Shown in pieces: positions 1-15,670 of a DNA stretch of 64,000 bases (positions are counted from its first letter, which is position 1; each line of letters begins with the position of its first letter). The translations under genes and the position numbers were made by a program. This DNA is from Paracoccus alkanivorans (lineage in GTDB: Bacteria; Pseudomonadota; Alphaproteobacteria; Rhodobacterales; Rhodobacteraceae), in contig NZ_QOKZ01000002.1 of assembly GCF_003697785.1 (NCBI RefSeq), positions 310,001 through 374,000 on the forward strand, written 5' to 3'. The notes beneath the pieces were generated by a model. That model made no database searches, was not told the DNA's origin, and saw nothing but the letters and a program-made list of their open reading frames with translations.

Positions 1-55
1 CCGCAACCGTGCCGTGATCGGCCAGCATCCTGAGCGCGCGGAGTTGTTCCAGCAT
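1..55 (-). CDS. LysR-family regulator, N-terminal fragment (CbbR candidate)
   Basis: The minus strand opens with ATG at 55 and reads MLEQLRALRMLADHGTVA before leaving the window. This is the usual first helix of a LysR-type winged HTH. The gene is divergent from cbbF-cbbP, which is where cbbR, the LysR activator of Calvin-cycle operons, normally sits. Only 18 residues are visible, so the CbbR identity rests on position alone. Confidence 0.6.
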   Translation of the reverse strand, partial: MLEQLRALRMLADHGTVA

Positions 56-100
56 GATCCTGCCGAGCAAGGACGTAATTTTCTTTTACGGTCCAGGAAC

Positions 101-175: not shown

Positions 176-1183
176 TTGGCGCAGATCCAGCAGATGGCCG
201 GACGGGCAATTCCCGCGCATCTTGAAAAGCCGGTCGCTGCGCTGTGCGATGTGACCTGCGACCTGCTCTCCCGCATCTTGATGGATGGGCTGGAAGGCAA
301 CCTTGCGGAAAGCGCCGGTTCAGACACCGGTGGCAATACGCAGCAACCTCTGGACCTGATCGCCGACAGGGATTTTCGCGCTGCCATGAACGGCACTGGC
401 ATCCGCTGGTATGCCTCGAAAGCGCGAAACAGAGTGGCCGAGGTCGAACCGGCGGGAAATCTTGCCATCGCCATAGACCCGTTGAACGGTTCCTCCGACC
501 TGGATGTGAACGCCTCAATCGGCACGGTCTTCAGCATCCAACCCGCCGAAGACGATCCCGACGCCACCTTTCTGCGGGCAGGTCACCATATCGTGGCAGC
601 GGGATATTTCATCCATGGGCCGCAAACCGTGTTGATGATCAGCCTTGGCGACGGGTTGCGCAAGTTCATCCTCGACCGCAAAGCCGGAATTTTCCGGGAA
701 GTGCCGGTGTCCCCGCTTCCAGGTCAGTGCAAGACGGTGGAATTCGCCATTAACGCATCCAACTACCGGCACTGGTCGCAACCGGTCCGGGCCTATGTCG
801 ATGACTGCCTTGCAGGCATGGACGGTCCGCGCGGCAAGAGTTTCAACATGCGCTGGATCGCCTCGCCGGTTGCCGAAGCGCATCGGATCATCTTGCGCGG
901 GGGGATTTTCCTTCATTCCGGCGATGCGCGGGACGGTCATGCCGAGGGACGATTGCGGCTGATCCACGAATGCGCACCGATCGCCTTTCTGGTCGAGCAA
1001 TCCGGCGGCAAGGCGACCGATGGCATCAGCCGAATGCTGGAGCGTGTGCCGACGAGCCTGCATGCCCACACCCCCTTCGTCTTCGGCACGCCCGACAAGG
1101 TCGACCGCTTGGCCACCTGTCACGATCTTCCCGAACCGGAAGTTTCCGCGCTTTTCGGCAATCGCGGCCTGTTCCGCGCCTGA
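176..1183 (+). CDS. cbbF: Class I fructose-1,6-bisphosphatase homologue (CbbF) with altered active site
   Basis: The fold and many family segments are clear: GGIFL, FAINASNYRHW, FNMRWIAS and the RLIHE glutamate near the C-terminus. Active CbbF removes the 1-phosphate of fructose 1,6-bisphosphate in the Calvin cycle and gluconeogenesis. Here the conserved acidic residues are changed. The GD-x-Q motif reads GGNTQ (Asn codon at 335), the ASEE loop reads ASKA (Lys codon at 419), and DPLDGSSN reads DPLNGSSD (Asn codon at 485). In pig-enzyme terms these match Asp68, Glu97, Glu98, Asp121 and Asn125; Asp74, Asp118 and Glu280 are kept. FLYP is FLHS. No ATG fits the N-terminus. A TTG at 176 follows GGGGAGG at 161-167 with good spacing; a TTG at 155 is the alternative. 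It is 15 bp upstream of cbbP and presumably co-transcribed. Confidence 0.85.
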   Translation: MAQIQQMAGRAIPAHLEKPVAALCDVTCDLLSRILMDGLEGNLAESAGSDTGGNTQQPLDLIADRDFRAAMNGTGIRWYASKARNRVAEVEPAGNLAIAIDPLNGSSDLDVNASIGTVFSIQPAEDDPDATFLRAGHHIVAAGYFIHGPQTVLMISLGDGLRKFILDRKAGIFREVPVSPLPGQCKTVEFAINASNYRHWSQPVRAYVDDCLAGMDGPRGKSFNMRWIASPVAEAHRIILRGGIFLHSGDARDGHAEGRLRLIHECAPIAFLVEQSGGKATDGISRMLERVPTSLHAHTPFVFGTPDKVDRLATCHDLPEPEVSALFGNRGLFRA

Positions 1184-1198
1184 TCCAAAGGAATAATC

Positions 1199-2071
1199 AT
1201 GTCCCGGAAACACCCGATCATCTCGGTCACAGGCTCTTCCGGCGCGGGGACCACCACGGTCAAGGGCATCTTCGACCAGATCTTCCGCCGCGAGGGTATC
1301 AATGCCGTCAGCATCGAGGGCGACGCTTTCCATCGCTATGACCGCGCAGCGATGAAAGAGGAACTCGCCCGCCGGCAGGCCGCAGGTGACCAGACCTTCA
1401 GCCATTTCAGTTATGACGCCAACGAGCTGAAAAAGCTGGAAGAGGTGTTCCGCGTCTATGGCGAAACCGGCCGCGGCGAAACGCGCCACTACGTCCATGA
1501 CGATGCCGAAGCTGCGAAATGGGGCACGCCCCCCGGCAAGTTCACCGATTGGGCACCATTCGAAGACAACTCGGATCTGCTGTTCTACGAGGGGCTGCAT
1601 GGTGCGGTGGTCAACGACCAGGTCAACCTGGCCAAACTGGCCGATCTGAAGATCGGCGTGGTGCCGGTGATCAACCTGGAATGGATCCAGAAGATCCACC
1701 GCGACAAGGCCAGCCGGGGCTATTCCACCGAGGCCGTCACCGACACCATCCTACGCCGCATGCATGCCTATGCGCACTGCATCTGCCCGCAATTCACGCA
1801 GACCGATATCAATTTCCAGCGCGTGCCGGTGGTCGACACCTCGAACCCGTTCATCGCCCGCTGGATTCCGACACCGGACGAAAGCCTCGTCGTGATCCGG
1901 TTCCGCGACCCGAAGGGAATCGATTTCCCCTATCTGACAGCGATGATCCAGGGTTCCTGGATGAGCCGCGCCAATTCGATCGTCATTCCGGGGCCGCGGA
2001 TGGACCTGGCCATGCAATTGATCCTGACGCCGATGATCCTGCGCCTCGTCAATGACGCCAGACGCGCCTGA
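1199..2071 (+). CDS. cbbP: Phosphoribulokinase, class I
   Basis: This enzyme phosphorylates ribulose 5-phosphate to ribulose 1,5-bisphosphate, the step that feeds RuBisCO. At 290 aa it has the length of the octameric proteobacterial class I form. The P-loop GSSGAGTTTV is near residues 11-20, the EGDAFHR segment carries the catalytic Asp near residue 42, and LFYEGLHG forms the Walker B region. The C-terminal segment with DFPYLTAMI and SWMSRANSIV closely follows Rhodobacter PRK. ATG is preceded by AAAGGA. In contrast to cbbF next door, every motif I can check is intact. No RuBisCO, transketolase or aldolase gene follows; the next gene is on the opposite strand. Confidence 0.96.
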   Translation: MSRKHPIISVTGSSGAGTTTVKGIFDQIFRREGINAVSIEGDAFHRYDRAAMKEELARRQAAGDQTFSHFSYDANELKKLEEVFRVYGETGRGETRHYVHDDAEAAKWGTPPGKFTDWAPFEDNSDLLFYEGLHGAVVNDQVNLAKLADLKIGVVPVINLEWIQKIHRDKASRGYSTEAVTDTILRRMHAYAHCICPQFTQTDINFQRVPVVDTSNPFIARWIPTPDESLVVIRFRDPKGIDFPYLTAMIQGSWMSRANSIVIPGPRMDLAMQLILTPMILRLVNDARRA

Positions 2072-2232: not shown

Positions 2233-4398
2233 TCACTCGGATGTCTGCAGAAGATCGGTGATACGCCGCACCGAAGCGCGCCGGTTCTCACGGATATCGC
2301 CTTCGGCCCGGACCTGCAGGAACTGCTCGCCATAGCCCTGCACGACAAGGTTTTCCGGCGGCACGTCGAAATATTCGCTCAGTGCCAGCGCCACCGATTC
2401 CGCGCGCCGATCAGACAGGGCGAGGTTCATGGCCGCATCTCCTACCGTGTCGGTATGCCCCTCGATCAGGAAGATCTCGCGCGGGTTCTCGCTGATCGCG
2501 CCCTGTATGACATTGCCGAGCGCCGAAAGTTGCTTGGCCTGATCCGACTTGATCGCCGCAGAGCCGGTTTCGAAGGTGATGGCATCGATATTGACCGGTG
2601 CCACCAATGCGCGCACCTCGGCGATATTGCGAATCTGGCCAAGGGTGAAGCGCCGGTCGATATCGGTTTCGCGCAGCAGCGCGGCCCGAAGCTCCTCCTC
2701 GTCCAGCGGACCTTCGCCGGTTTCTACCGGCTCGGCCGGAGCGGGCAGGCTGGCAATATCCACCGGCTCCACACCCGCGGTGTCATCGATAAGCTGTGTC
2801 GAGCTGCCATCGGCCGAAACCAGCGTACGGCGCAGGACGCGCAGATCGGCGTCGCGGATAGTCACCACCTGGCTGCCATCGGCGCGAGTCACCACCGTCC
2901 GCGAAGAACCGTCGTCGAAATTCTCTGTCGTGATGGTCGAGCCGGGCTGACGCAGCAGGGCGACTTCGTCCTTGATGACCTCCTGGCTGCCATCGGCACG
3001 CGTCACGACAACCCGGTCCGGCGTGCTGAGCGTGACTTCACGGTTATTGTTCAGCATCGAGCCGACAACGACCGCTCCCGCCCCCAGCAACAATGCCTTG
3101 GCCAGGTCATTGTTGTCGTCGTCCTCATCGGCATTGGCCGTCTGTTCCTGCCCATCCTGGCCAGTCACGCCGGACAATGCGTCCCGCAGGCTGGTCTCGA
3201 AGTCCTCCGAGGACGAACGGGAGTTTTCCTCTGTCACCTGCTGTTCGACAACCTCGCCCTCGCCGCTTTCCGCAGTCAGGGCAGCGGCGGTCGGAGCCTC
3301 GGTCGCTGCCGCGGCTTCCTTGGCGGCTTCCGTCTCGGCACCGCCTTCTTCGGCCAGCGCGTCCTCATGCGTGGACTCGGTGCTTTCGGAGGCCGCAGCG
3401 GCATCGCCGGTTTCAGCGGTCTCTCCCCCGGATTCCTCGGCGGCCTTTTCCTCTTCGGCCAAGGCATCGGCCAGCGCGTCCTCATCTGTGGACTCGGTGC
3501 TTTCGGAGGCCGCAGCGGCATCGCCGGTTTCAGCGGTCTCTTCCCCGGCTTCCTCGGCGGCCTTTTCCTCTTCGGCCAAGGCATCGGCCAGCGCGTCCTC
3601 GTCCGTGGACTCGGTGCTTTCGGAGGTCGCAGCGGCATCGCCGGTTTCAGCGGCCTCTCCCCCGGCTTCCTCGGCGGCCTGCTCCTCTTCGGCCAAGGCA
3701 TCGGCCAGCGCGTCCTCCTCCGTGGACTCGGTGCTTTCGGAGGTCGCAGCGGCATCGCCGGTTTCAGCGGCCTCTCCCCCGGCTTCCTCGGTGGCCTGCT
3801 CCTCTTCGGCCAAGGCATCAGCCAGCGCGTCCTCCTCCGTGGACTCGGTGCTTTCGGAGGTCGCAGCGGCATCGCCGGTTTCAGCGGCCTCTCCCCCAGT
3901 TTCCTCGGCGGCCTTTTCCTCTTCGGCCAAGGCATCGGCCAGCGCGTCCTCGTCCGTGGACTCGGTGCTTTCGGAGGTCGCAGCGGTGCTGTCGGTCGGC
4001 GCTTCGGTTTCGGCCTCGACCGGTTCAGCAGCCTCAGCCTCGGCAGCCGCTTCGGTTTCGGCCTCGACCGGTTCCGCAGCCTCAGCCTCGGCAGCCGCTT
4101 CGGTTTCGGCCTCGGCAGCCGCTTCAGCTTCAGCTTCCGCCTCGGCTTCCGCTGCGGCTTCAGCTTCGGCTTCCGTTTGCTCTGCCGTTCCCGGCTCAAC
4201 CGGCAATACGGTTTCCGTGTCGGCTTGTGCAATCACGTCAAACCCGGCCTGTTCCTGCCCGGCCTTCGACTGTTTCGCGGCACGCTCCAGCGCGACTCCA
4301 TCGACAAGCGATGTTTCCGCCATCGCCAGATGGGGTGCCAAAAGCGACAGGCAGGCGGCAATAGCGGTGCTGTTATGGATGATCCGGCGCATCTGCAT
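2233..4398 (-). CDS. OmpA-family outer membrane/peptidoglycan-associated protein with acidic repeat region
   Basis: The 721-residue protein begins with a signal peptide ending near AMA-ET. Residues about 60-360 are a low-complexity Ala/Glu-rich region made of 16-aa and then 39-aa tandem repeats. A short hydrophobic segment (LLLGAGAVVVGSML) follows, then a region with repeated VVTRADGSQ. The C-terminal ~115 residues are an OmpA/MotB domain, with the peptidoglycan-binding stretch IEGHTDTVG and the NRRASVRRI ending. It likely tethers the outer membrane to peptidoglycan, with the repeats acting as a long acidic spacer. GAGGA upstream is better spaced for the ATG at codon 3 than for the first ATG. 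The repeat length probably varies between strains. Confidence 0.85.
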   Translation of the reverse strand: MQMRRIIHNSTAIAACLSLLAPHLAMAETSLVDGVALERAAKQSKAGQEQAGFDVIAQADTETVLPVEPGTAEQTEAEAEAAAEAEAEAEAEAAAEAETEAAAEAEAAEPVEAETEAAAEAEAAEPVEAETEAPTDSTAATSESTESTDEDALADALAEEEKAAEETGGEAAETGDAAATSESTESTEEDALADALAEEEQATEEAGGEAAETGDAAATSESTESTEEDALADALAEEEQAAEEAGGEAAETGDAAATSESTESTDEDALADALAEEEKAAEEAGEETAETGDAAAASESTESTDEDALADALAEEEKAAEESGGETAETGDAAAASESTESTHEDALAEEGGAETEAAKEAAAATEAPTAAALTAESGEGEVVEQQVTEENSRSSSEDFETSLRDALSGVTGQDGQEQTANADEDDDNNDLAKALLLGAGAVVVGSMLNNNREVTLSTPDRVVVTRADGSQEVIKDEVALLRQPGSTITTENFDDGSSRTVVTRADGSQVVTIRDADLRVLRRTLVSADGSSTQLIDDTAGVEPVDIASLPAPAEPVETGEGPLDEEELRAALLRETDIDRRFTLGQIRNIAEVRALVAPVNIDAITFETGSAAIKSDQAKQLSALGNVIQGAISENPREIFLIEGHTDTVGDAAMNLALSDRRAESVALALSEYFDVPPENLVVQGYGEQFLQVRAEGDIRENRRASVRRITDLLQTSE
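3346..3990 (-). repeat. 117-bp in-frame tandem repeat array in the OmpA-family gene
   Basis: The 10-mer GTGGACTCGG recurs at 3371, 3488, 3605, 3722, 3839 and 3956, exactly 117 bp apart, which is 39 codons. Partial units lie at both ends. The coded unit has a Ser/Thr/Glu stretch (SESTESTDED) followed by ALADALAEEE and a Gly/Ala/Glu linker. Copies are nearly identical in DNA, which points to recent duplication or gene conversion. Confidence 0.95.
4001..4144 (-). repeat. 48-bp in-frame tandem repeat (16-aa unit)
   Basis: GCTTCGGTTT recurs at 4001, 4049 and 4097, a 48-bp period. It encodes 16-residue units of the type EAETEAAAEAEAAEPV, just before the 39-aa repeats in the protein. A still more degenerate Ala/Glu tract continues toward the N-terminus. 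Confidence 0.85.
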
Positions 4399-13698: not shown

Positions 13699-14624
13699 TG
13701 GCTGTTCTGTTGCTTGGAGAAGTCACCGGGGGTGAACTCAGCGTCGATGCCACCTCGAAGGCCGTGGCCGCGGTCAAGGCGCTTGGCGAGGTGACGGTGC
13801 TCTGCGCCGGGGCCTCCGCCAGGGATGCCGCGCAGGAAGCGGCAAAGATCGACGGCGTATCGAAGGTGCTGGTTGCCGAGGATGCACGCTACGGCCACCG
13901 CCTGGCCGAGCCCACGGCGGCACTGCTGGTCAGCCTCGCGGGCGATTACGAGCATATCGTCGCCCCTGCGACCACCGATGCCAAGAACATCATGCCGCGC
14001 GTGGCCGCACTGCTGGATGCGATGATCATCTCGGATGTCTCCGGCATCATCGATGCCGAGACCTTCGAGCGCCCGGTCTATGCCGGTAACGCCATCCAGA
14101 CGGTGAAATCGAAGGACGCCAAAAAGGTTCTGACCGTGCGTACCGCCAGCTTTGACGCGGCAGGCGAAGGCGGCCCGGCGCCCATCGAGGAAGTCGCACC
14201 GGCCGACGATCCCGCCCTGTCGAAATGGGTTGCCGACGAGGTCGCCGAAAGCGACCGCCCCGAGCTGACCTCGGCAGGCCGGGTGGTCTCGGGTGGCCGC
14301 GGTGTCGGCTCCAAGGAGGATTTCGCGATCATCGAGAAGCTGGCCGACAAGCTGGGCGCCGCCGTCGGCGCCAGCCGCGCCGCCGTCGATTCGGGCTATG
14401 CCCCGAATGACTGGCAGGTCGGCCAGACCGGCAAGGTCGTCGCGCCCGAGCTTTACGTGGCCGTCGGCATCTCCGGCGCGATCCAGCATCTCGCGGGGAT
14501 GAAGGACTCCAAGGTCATCGTCGCGATCAACAAGGACGAGGAGGCCCCGATCTTCCAGATCGCCGATTACGGCCTCGTCGGAGACCTGTTCAGCGTCGTC
14601 CCGGAACTGACCGAAAAGCTGTAG
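13698..14624 (+). CDS. etfA: Electron transfer flavoprotein, alpha subunit
   Basis: This is the FAD-binding partner of EtfB, 308 aa. The C-terminal FAD domain carries [19 protein letters not shown], the [13 protein letters not shown] stretch, and [15 protein letters not shown]. All match the family signature. It ends 3 bp before an interspersed repeat (14627-14690) that probably closes the etfBA transcript. Confidence 0.98.
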
Positions 14625-14626
14625 CA

Positions 14627-14690
14627 GCTTCTTCTTTGTGAAAATACCTCGGGGGAGCCGCGCGATGCGCGGCGGGGGCAGAGCCCCTTT
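14627..14690 (+). repeat. Interspersed 3'-end element, copy A
   Basis: The core is TTCTTCTTTGTGAAAATACC followed by TCGGGGGAG. Two hairpins come next: arms CCGCGC/GCGCGG, then GGGGGCAGAGCCCC ending in TTT. It begins 3 bp after the etfA stop. Copies B (41829), C (58190, minus) and D (56290, minus) share the core. Confidence 0.7.
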
Positions 14691-14794
14691 CCCCGGCAAA
14701 CCCTCACCGCCTCCGGCCATCCCGGAGGCGGTTTTGCATTGCGACAGGAAACCGCTCCCCCTATCGTCGCGGCGATCAGACAAGAGAGGCGGAC

Positions 14795-15670
14795 ATGGCG
14801 ATTCAAAAGGTAGGCGTGATCGGAGCGGGGCAGATGGGCAACGGGATCGCCCATGTCTTTGCGCTGGCGGGCTATGACGTATTGCTCAACGACATCAGTC
14901 AGGATGCGCTGGACAAGGCCATCGCGCTGATCGACCGCAACCTGGAACGGCAGGTCAGCCGCGAAAAGATCAGCGCCGAGGACAAGAAGGCCGCGATGGG
15001 GCGGATTTCGACCACGCTGACCCTGACCGATCTTGGCCAGACCGACCTGGTGATCGAGGCCGCGACCGAGCGCGAAACGGTCAAGCAAGCGATCTTCGAG
15101 GATCTCGTCCCGCATCTGAAGCCCGACACGATCCTGACCTCGAACACCTCGTCGATCTCGATCACCCGGCTGGCCAGCCGCACCGACCGGCCCGAGAAAT
15201 TCATGGGTTTCCATTTCATGAACCCGGTCCCGGTCATGCAACTGGTCGAACTGATCCGCGGCATTGCCACCGATGAGGCAACCTACAAGACGCTGCACGA
15301 GGTCGTCGGCAAGCTGGGCAAGACCGCGGCCTCAGCCGAGGATTTCCCGGCCTTCATCGTGAACCGGATCCTGATGCCGATGATCAACGAGGCGGTCTAT
15401 ACGCTCTATGAGGGCGTGGGGAACGTCAAATCGATCGACGAATCGCTGAAACTGGGCGCCAATCACCCGATGGGGCCGCTGGAACTGGCCGATTTCATCG
15501 GGCTCGACACCTGCCTTGCGATCATGAACGTGCTGCATGACGGGCTCGCGGACACGAAATACCGCCCCTGCCCGCTTTTGACCAAATATGTCGAGGCGGG
15601 CTGGCTGGGCCGCAAGACCGGCCGCGGCTTTTACGATTATCGCGGAGAAAGCCCCGTTCCGACGCGTTAA
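14795..15670 (+). CDS. hbd: 3-hydroxybutyryl-CoA dehydrogenase
   Basis: This NAD(P)-dependent enzyme interconverts 3-hydroxybutyryl-CoA and acetoacetyl-CoA. The Rossmann motif VGVIGAGQMGNGIA is at the N-terminus. The catalytic His lies in GFHFMNPVPVMQLVE, and the C-terminal dimerisation part has KLGANHPMGPLELADFIGLD. At 291 aa it is the short monofunctional form, not the FadB fusion. Proximity to etfBA suggests a shared role in short-chain acyl-CoA or polyhydroxybutyrate turnover, although the repeat element between them implies separate transcripts. Confidence 0.95.
   Translation: MAIQKVGVIGAGQMGNGIAHVFALAGYDVLLNDISQDALDKAIALIDRNLERQVSREKISAEDKKAAMGRISTTLTLTDLGQTDLVIEAATERETVKQAIFEDLVPHLKPDTILTSNTSSISITRLASRTDRPEKFMGFHFMNPVPVMQLVELIRGIATDEATYKTLHEVVGKLGKTAASAEDFPAFIVNRILMPMINEAVYTLYEGVGNVKSIDESLKLGANHPMGPLELADFIGLDTCLAIMNVLHDGLADTKYRPCPLLTKYVEAGWLGRKTGRGFYDYRGESPVPTR

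Follow-up and report, generated by a model that had tools for sequence, protein, structure and literature searches.

Fructose bisphosphatase (FBPase) and phosphoribulokinase (PRK) are textbook enzymes of the Calvin cycle. In proteobacterial cbb operons, the class I FBPase CbbF is encoded between cbbR and prk and has a C-terminal tail. In mammalian FBPase, as described in PMC3785478 and PMC5639204, Asp118, Asp121 and Glu280 coordinate metal 1, whereas Glu97 coordinates metal 2, together with Asp118 and the Leu120 carbonyl, and also metal 3; the catalytic waters are held by Asp74 and Glu98. The GAPDH-CP12-PRK complex of algae and plants, as described in PMC4436894, contains the small disordered protein CP12 and offers the idea of a non-catalytic segment that binds and controls PRK. 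Further, dead homologues of enzymes are known to be kept, such as the trypanosome AdoMetDC prozyme and the inactive subunits of deoxyhypusine synthase, which according to the same reports act on their own paralogues (PMC6221367, PMC5201418, PMC3663545). Among titles and abstract openings of the open-access literature, a collection outside which most subscription journals lie, we found neither an FBPase pseudoenzyme beside PRK nor a PRK-binding tail of CbbF.

The locus examined here lies at the start of a 64,000-nucleotide stretch of the Paracoccus alkanivorans genome (contig NZ_QOKZ01000002.1, positions 310,001 to 374,000), hereafter called the window. An open frame of 335 codons on the plus strand (positions 176-1183; TTG at 176, stop codon TGA at 1181-1183) encodes a homologue of class I FBPase. 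The TTG aligned with the ATG of the homologue of P. methylarcula, and the public record for the same gene has 329 amino acids, consistent with the ATG at 194 as the start. The protein belongs to the class I FBPase sequence family, with 90.4 bits for PF00316 (FBPase; cut-off 34.8) and 134 bits for PF18913 (FBPase_C; cut-off 27). It resembles CbbF in its sequence and family, its position between cbbR and prk and its tail, and the gene is immediately 5' of prk. In contrast to CbbF, it lacks four of the six acidic residues conserved in the active site and scored 353.7 bits against NF006780 (class 1 fructose-bisphosphatase, the nearest NCBIfam model), just below the cut-off of 358.

The stop codon is followed after 15 nt by prk (cbbP; 1199-2071, plus strand), which encodes a PRK of 290 amino acids. 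Its conserved motifs were intact in a motif survey, and it scored 492 bits against NF011997 (cut-off 362) and 527 bits over residues 1-288 against PDB 1a7j, which we take to be the PRK of Rhodobacter sphaeroides. The window PRK is of the same family as 1a7j, but its genome yielded no match to form I RuBisCO, and its locus lacks both cbbT and cbbA. On the left side, tblastn detected the start of a broken cbbR (1-70, minus strand); the matched stretch extends about 560 bases past the left end of the window and is 35% matched to intact CbbR with two stops. The remaining cbbF-cbbP pair is thus without its usual activator gene (the broken cbbR is at 14438-15058 of the fetched locus L005). On the 3' side of prk, an OmpA-family gene, a glutamine synthetase gene and a P-II gene are located on the opposite strand. 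The OmpA-family protein (2233-4398, minus strand; 721 amino acids) has a long, acidic and repetitive middle, and its C-terminal part is conserved beside prk in P. methylarcula (G018) and in a close relative, G106. The junction between prk and ompA is also present in these two genomes; cbbF of G106 is broken. We found none of cbbT, cbbA, cbbL, cbbS, cbbX and rpe in the 24 kb that were read. The start of the window is inside a remnant of a Calvin-cycle (cbb) operon.

To place the active-site residues, we aligned the window protein with E. coli FBPase and 120 homologues. GDxQ was changed to GNTQ, ASEE to ASKA, DPLDGSSN to DPLNGSSD and FLYP to FLHS. Residue numbers of the pig enzyme were transferred by alignment. 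In this numbering, Asp68, Glu97, Glu98 and Asp121, four of the six conserved acidic active-site residues, were lost. Asp101 (pig Asp118), Glu265 (Glu280) and Asp60 (the aspartate in KALD, which we take to be Asp74 of the pig enzyme) were kept, as were Asn193 and Arg226 together with a large part of the C-terminal domain. On the plus strand of the window, Asn54 (335-337) replaces the acidic residue of GDxQ, Lys82-Ala83 (419-424) replace Glu97-Glu98, described as a metal ligand and a catalytic-water residue (PMC3785478, PMC5639204), and Asn104 (485-487) replaces the residue described as the metal ligand Asp121 (PMC3785478). Among the metal ligands of an active class I FBPase (Glu97, Asp118, Asp121 and Glu280), Glu97 was thus changed to Lys and Asp121 to Asn, and Asp118 and Glu280 were retained. 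Because metal-ligand and catalytic-water residues are replaced, the window protein is expected to have lost phosphatase activity. A first-pass annotation of this DNA had read the same four motif changes, an intact frame and a conserved neighbouring PRK, all of which agreed with the present analysis; its statement that most catalytic acidic residues are lost holds for four of the six, with Asp101, Glu265 and Asp60 retained.

Among the matches listed, the canonical acidic set was read by eye in 117 of the 120 homologues. The three without it were the record of the window gene itself, a protein from a metagenome (89%) and the protein of P. methylarcula (73% identity), the frame of which is also open. 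Lys-Ala at 97-98 and the Asp that ends the DPLDGSSN motif are common to these three; Asp121 is changed to Asn in the window and metagenome proteins only. Since the former changes are common to all three, inactivation would most simply predate the split of these proteins. In the window genome and in P. methylarcula, cbbF and cbbP are the sole cbb genes left at the locus.

Next, we surveyed the genus. A PRK match was detected in 70 of 125 Paracoccus genomes, and 69 of the 70 loci were read (the window locus and 68 others; G123, with a scrap of prk at a contig edge, was left out). cbbF adjoined prk in 67 of the 69 loci and was absent in G087 and G104, the latter with a broken prk. All 62 genomes with a cbbF match above 250 bits were PRK-positive. 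All six key acidic residues were kept in 46 of the 67 cbbF genes. Thirteen of the 67, all beside prk, were open frames that had lost three to six of them (G000, G018, G005, G080, G097, G001, G091, G092, G011, G069, G068, G139 and G127; G000 is the window genome), where the scores of the most divergent depend on the alignment (six lost in G001 and G091 in one alignment, five and four in another). Two residues were lost in G107 and one in G138, and cbbF of G072 was strongly decayed. The frames of G079, G106, G121, G031 and G146 were broken and were excluded from the counts of inactive open genes; sequencing errors may account for the breaks in G031, G121 and G146.

The live and inactive genes differed in their surroundings. 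A cbbT match and a cbbA match were each present at 40 of the 46 live loci versus 0 of 15 inactive loci (the 13 together with G107 and G072), where some loci are cut off by the end of the contig or of the fetched range and the Fisher p value of 8e-10 overstates the contrast because related species are not independent. Six loci (L054, L055, L077, L080, L081 and L085) were short cbb operons with cbbR, inactive cbbF, prk, cbbLS, cbbX and rpe; these operons encode RuBisCO and lack cbbT and cbbA. At L065 (G079), the operon was rubble: cbbF, cbbT, cbbA, cbbL and cbbX were in pieces, the prk frame was intact and rpe was apparently intact.

We then asked how often inactive cbbF had arisen. The cbbF tree required at least six changes between the live and inactive states with G138 counted, and the PRK tree required at least five with G138 and the broken genes left out. 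A single origin of inactive cbbF was rejected (p-AU 0.00017). The p value was 0.022 when G011/G069 were joined with G068/G139/G127 and 0.010 when the window pair was joined with the G005/G001 group; a single clade of G068, G139 and G127 was not clearly rejected (p 0.054). These tests used quick trees with long branches of inactive cbbF, and the groups were defined once the trees had been inspected. We concluded that inactive cbbF beside prk probably had at least four origins, each at loci that lack cbbT and cbbA; the number is set at four because of the result for G068, G139 and G127.

RuBisCO was examined in the same genomes. In the window genome (4.66 Mb, 99.99% complete), the RuBisCO large subunit had one match, a frame of 431 amino acids on another contig that scored 249 bits, and form I RuBisCO had none. 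Unbroken, high-scoring (form I) matches in the genus Paracoccus scored 442-468 bits; because of this gap, the frame apparently encodes a RuBisCO-like protein. Judged by motif, it presumably lacks the loop-6 lysine. The frame (1057-2352 of L004) adjoins an apparent gene for a periplasmic sugar-binding protein. A RuBisCO-family match was found in 77 Paracoccus genomes. Among the PRK-positive genomes, G011, G068, G087, G127, G135 and G139 had no RuBisCO-family match, and G000, G018, G106, G072 and G006 had low-scoring RuBisCO-like matches only. The absence of RuBisCO in P. aminophilus (G068) is published in PMC4543880, the main text of which contains neither the word phosphoribulokinase nor the word bisphosphatase. 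In many Paracoccus without a form I match, prk is kept with low omega (L052, L053, L057-L063 and window 1199-2071). We set aside a role of the window cbbF tied to the RuBisCO-like protein because G011, G068, G087, G127, G135 and G139 keep prk without any RuBisCO-family match. In R. sphaeroides, the product of PRK is reported to activate CbbR (PMC4806589); retention of PRK for sensing by CbbR does not fit the window genome, in which cbbR is broken.

The first-pass annotation had also proposed a search for a second FBPase, either class I or GlpX, and both were found. The second class I FBPase has intact motifs, and its neighbours were read as genes for a class II aldolase and triose-phosphate isomerase; the GlpX match scored 439 bits. 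An inactive subunit might hetero-oligomerise with a different, active class I FBPase, which it would regulate, and regulatory inactive paralogues are described for other enzymes in the reports on prozymes. However, G068, G139 and G127 (84% complete) each have only one class I FBPase match, and the second FBPase of the window genome lacks the tail motif described below. We regard this explanation as very improbable. The prozyme-type proteins differ in acting on their own paralogue; the proposed partner of the window protein is an unrelated kinase encoded downstream.

The first-pass annotation had left two explanations, early decay or retention of a non-catalytic regulator or partner of PRK, and had suggested dN/dS across relatives as a check. 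By pairwise codon maximum likelihood, omega between cbbF of the window and of P. methylarcula was 0.192 (dS 0.81; LRT against omega = 1, 91). Omega was 0.069-0.172 in nine other inactive pairs, some with saturated dS, and 0.050-0.110 in thirteen live pairs; the pairs G127-G139 (inactive) and G007-G021 (live) were dropped for infinite dS, and some other fits had dS above 2. In branch models of four clades, omega after inactivation was 0.167 (the window clade), 0.138, 0.129 and 0.203, compared with 0.089, 0.116, 0.108 and 0.112 on the other branches. The difference was supported in two of the four clades (LRT 7.1, 0.9, 0.5 and 7.6), and omega = 1 was rejected in all four (LRT 104, 202, 76 and 80.5, with 104 for the window clade). 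Some constraint on inactive cbbF is gone, since in two of these clades omega after inactivation was roughly double that of live genes. In neutral simulations at the dS of the window pair (dS capped at 1.0), the two copies accumulated a mean of 9.2 stops and none of 2000 runs was free of stops; at a quarter of this distance, 75 of 2000 runs were. The open frame is therefore unlikely to have survived by chance, unless the loss of constraint was very late.

These results bear on the possibility that the window gene is a pseudogene in the making, following the loss of RuBisCO, with a frame that is by chance still unbroken. Several observations agree with it: form I RuBisCO had no match, cbbT, cbbA and others are gone from the locus, cbbR is broken, cbbF of the close relative G106 is broken, and omega rose from 0.089 to 0.167. 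However, the inactivating changes are common to lineages 27% apart in protein, omega = 1 was rejected for both the pair (LRT 91) and the branches (LRT 104), and two neutral copies would jointly hold about nine stops. Further, truly decaying genes in the genus have stops or frame breaks (G079; cbbL of G107 and G069), and the window cbbF shows neither frame breaks nor omega near 1. We consider early decay unlikely. Of the two explanations left by the first-pass annotation, the retained non-catalytic protein is thus favoured, as the changes predate the 27% divergence, the frames are open, omega after inactivation was 0.13-0.20 under purifying selection in all four clades, and inactive genes had repeatedly originated beside prk. 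The combination of lost catalytic residues and purifying selection suggests that the product of window cbbF is a catalytically degenerate pseudoenzyme.

Constraint was unevenly distributed along the protein. In seven inactive pairs pooled, the N-terminal (catalytic) part had an omega of 0.186, the C-terminal domain one of 0.108 and the final 21 residues one of 0.038; the corresponding values in eleven live pairs pooled were 0.103, 0.068 and 0.087. The catalytic domain is the most divergent part of the inactive proteins, and the C-terminal tail the least changed. In the window, the tail CHDLPEPEVSALFGNRGLFRA is encoded at 1118-1180 (plus strand). Among the 147 tail codons of the seven inactive pairs, 34 differed by synonymous changes only and 7 by nonsynonymous changes. 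When 11 inactive proteins were aligned, 16 of the 19 C-terminal residues of the first row proved invariant. Within the tail, the core ALFGNRGLF (1148-1174, plus strand) matches the motif LFxxR[GS][LF][FLM].

The distribution of this motif was surveyed in three overlapping samples. First, in the best 80 of 593 relatives (named PRK loci, alphaproteobacterial as far as the titles tell), the FBPase adjoined PRK and had the motif near its end in all 80, one frame (L158) being cut short. Second, in an even sample of 289 alphaproteobacteria, in which all FBPase matches save two weak ones were read, the motif was present in 14 of 14 FBPases beside PRK (the window gene apart) and in 0 of 5 away from PRK; the second FBPase of the window genome also lacks it. 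Third, among 50 loci read in a sample of 398 genomes of the phylum (the 30 best matches and 20 hand-picked, many by whether the match reached the end of the query), 36 FBPases had both the motif and PRK, 14 had neither and none was discordant. The 289- and 398-genome samples overlap because at least four loci (G152, G194, G313 and G407) recur. Together, the motif was present beside PRK in 80 of 80, 14 of 14 and 36 of 36, and elsewhere in 0 of 20. A stricter form of the motif occurred 78 times at the 80 loci, in all cases in FBPase frames (1.39 million residues scanned; ORFs of at least 80 amino acids). In Paracoccus, 64 of 67 cbbF genes had the motif and the three without it were broken frames. 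It was also present in 229 of 230 database proteins listed, where gene neighbours are known only for those among the loci read. Beside prk of Rhodospira trueperi (L173, 6800-7924), an FBPase has the Asp of GDxQ changed to Ser, E98D, D118E and E280D with the tail motif intact, and RuBisCO is encoded elsewhere in the genome. We did not count it as inactive; three of its four changed key residues are Asp/Glu swaps and the enzyme may still be active.

The converse was observed in two genomes of the same family as the window genome, G531 (L228) and G766 (L220). Their FBPases have intact catalytic motifs and no tail motif, the next frame was read as rpe, and no PRK match was detected anywhere in either genome; the deletion that removed prk could have reached into the end of the gene. 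Among unbroken genes read in Pseudomonadota, the tail motif is thus linked to PRK without exception. The tail is specific to cbb operons, and linkage to PRK is not fully separable from linkage to other Calvin-cycle enzymes, although at the loci of the window and of P. methylarcula cbbP is the one cbb gene left beside cbbF. The proposal of the first-pass annotation that the FBPase-like protein is a partner of PRK gains from this linkage; the binding itself is what we infer from sequence.

The frame might instead be kept only so that translation reaches prk, through avoidance of polarity or translational coupling, with an idle protein. The distance of 15 nt between cbbF and prk and the in-frame indels of the inactive open genes agree with this explanation. 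It predicts, however, the purging of stops and frameshifts and not of missense changes, and yet omega was 0.13-0.20 and constraint depended on the region. The motif codons vary and the gap to prk ranges from -1 to 165 nt; the constraint therefore acts on the protein, and the tail is kept as amino acids. In addition, prk persists in G106 and G087, neither of which has an intact cbbF. This reading is, in our judgement, highly unlikely.

Another explanation is a new ligand-binding or catalytic role, such as that of a sugar-phosphate sensor, unrelated to PRK binding. The residues that the window protein keeps (Asp101, Glu265, Asp60, Asn193 and Arg226, with a large part of the C-terminal domain) would suit such a role. 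However, other inactive clades lack further ligand residues, in some cases all six of the acidic residues, and keep the tail, and all inactive genes of known place adjoin prk. We hold such a new role to be an improbable basis for the retention of the gene.

PRK itself was examined where cbbF had been lost. Faster change of PRK was not found in six pairs holding G079, G087 or G106 (omega 0.026-0.066). In G106, cbbF is broken, the motif is decayed and prk is kept with omega of about 0.06; in G087, prk is present and cbbF is absent. Thus, PRK can persist without a CbbF partner, which is dispensable somewhere. PRK of G079 has His45 changed to Gln and Gly109 changed to Ser at otherwise invariant sites.

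Our preferred explanation, which we consider somewhat more probable than not, is that the window gene encodes a pseudo-FBPase kept by selection, most likely as a non-catalytic partner of the downstream PRK that docks through its C-terminal tail. Here we infer three steps, namely loss of activity, binding of PRK by the tail and regulation of PRK by this binding. A class I FBPase no longer capable of normal metal-dependent catalysis would have been kept by selection as a protein. It would dock on PRK through the conserved tail (core LFxxRGLF), perhaps also through the conserved C-terminal domain, and the docked protein would hold or tune PRK. One possible form is a brake that restrains the formation of ribulose bisphosphate where no RuBisCO uses it. 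CbbF may thus have two jobs, hydrolysis of fructose bisphosphate and a PRK-linked job of the tail and C-terminal domain, of which the window gene would have kept only the second; this reading is the simplest, because catalytic residues can disappear and the tail persist where PRK is present, and the tail can disappear and the catalytic residues persist where PRK is absent. More broadly, proteobacterial CbbF in general might have a PRK-docking tail (LFxxRGLF) and form an FBPase-PRK control complex that plays the part of CP12, and in Paracoccus lineages without cbbT and cbbA, and often without RuBisCO, the phosphatase might have been freed from catalysis several times and have survived as a dedicated regulator of PRK. 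We put this wider proposal forward tentatively, as somewhat less than evenly probable. The likeness to CP12 lies in the idea of a non-catalytic segment that binds and controls PRK; in contrast to CP12 as described in PMC4436894, the window protein is a bacterial FBPase homologue for which we claim no sequence likeness and for which binding of PRK is proposed.

Public records label several inactive cbbF genes class 1 fructose-bisphosphatase, a name that can pass for evidence of a working cycle. The repeated loss of catalytic residues beside a kept, PRK-linked tail is a natural experiment that separates two functions of one protein. If true, a physical link between bacterial FBPase and PRK would provide a point of control similar to that provided by CP12.
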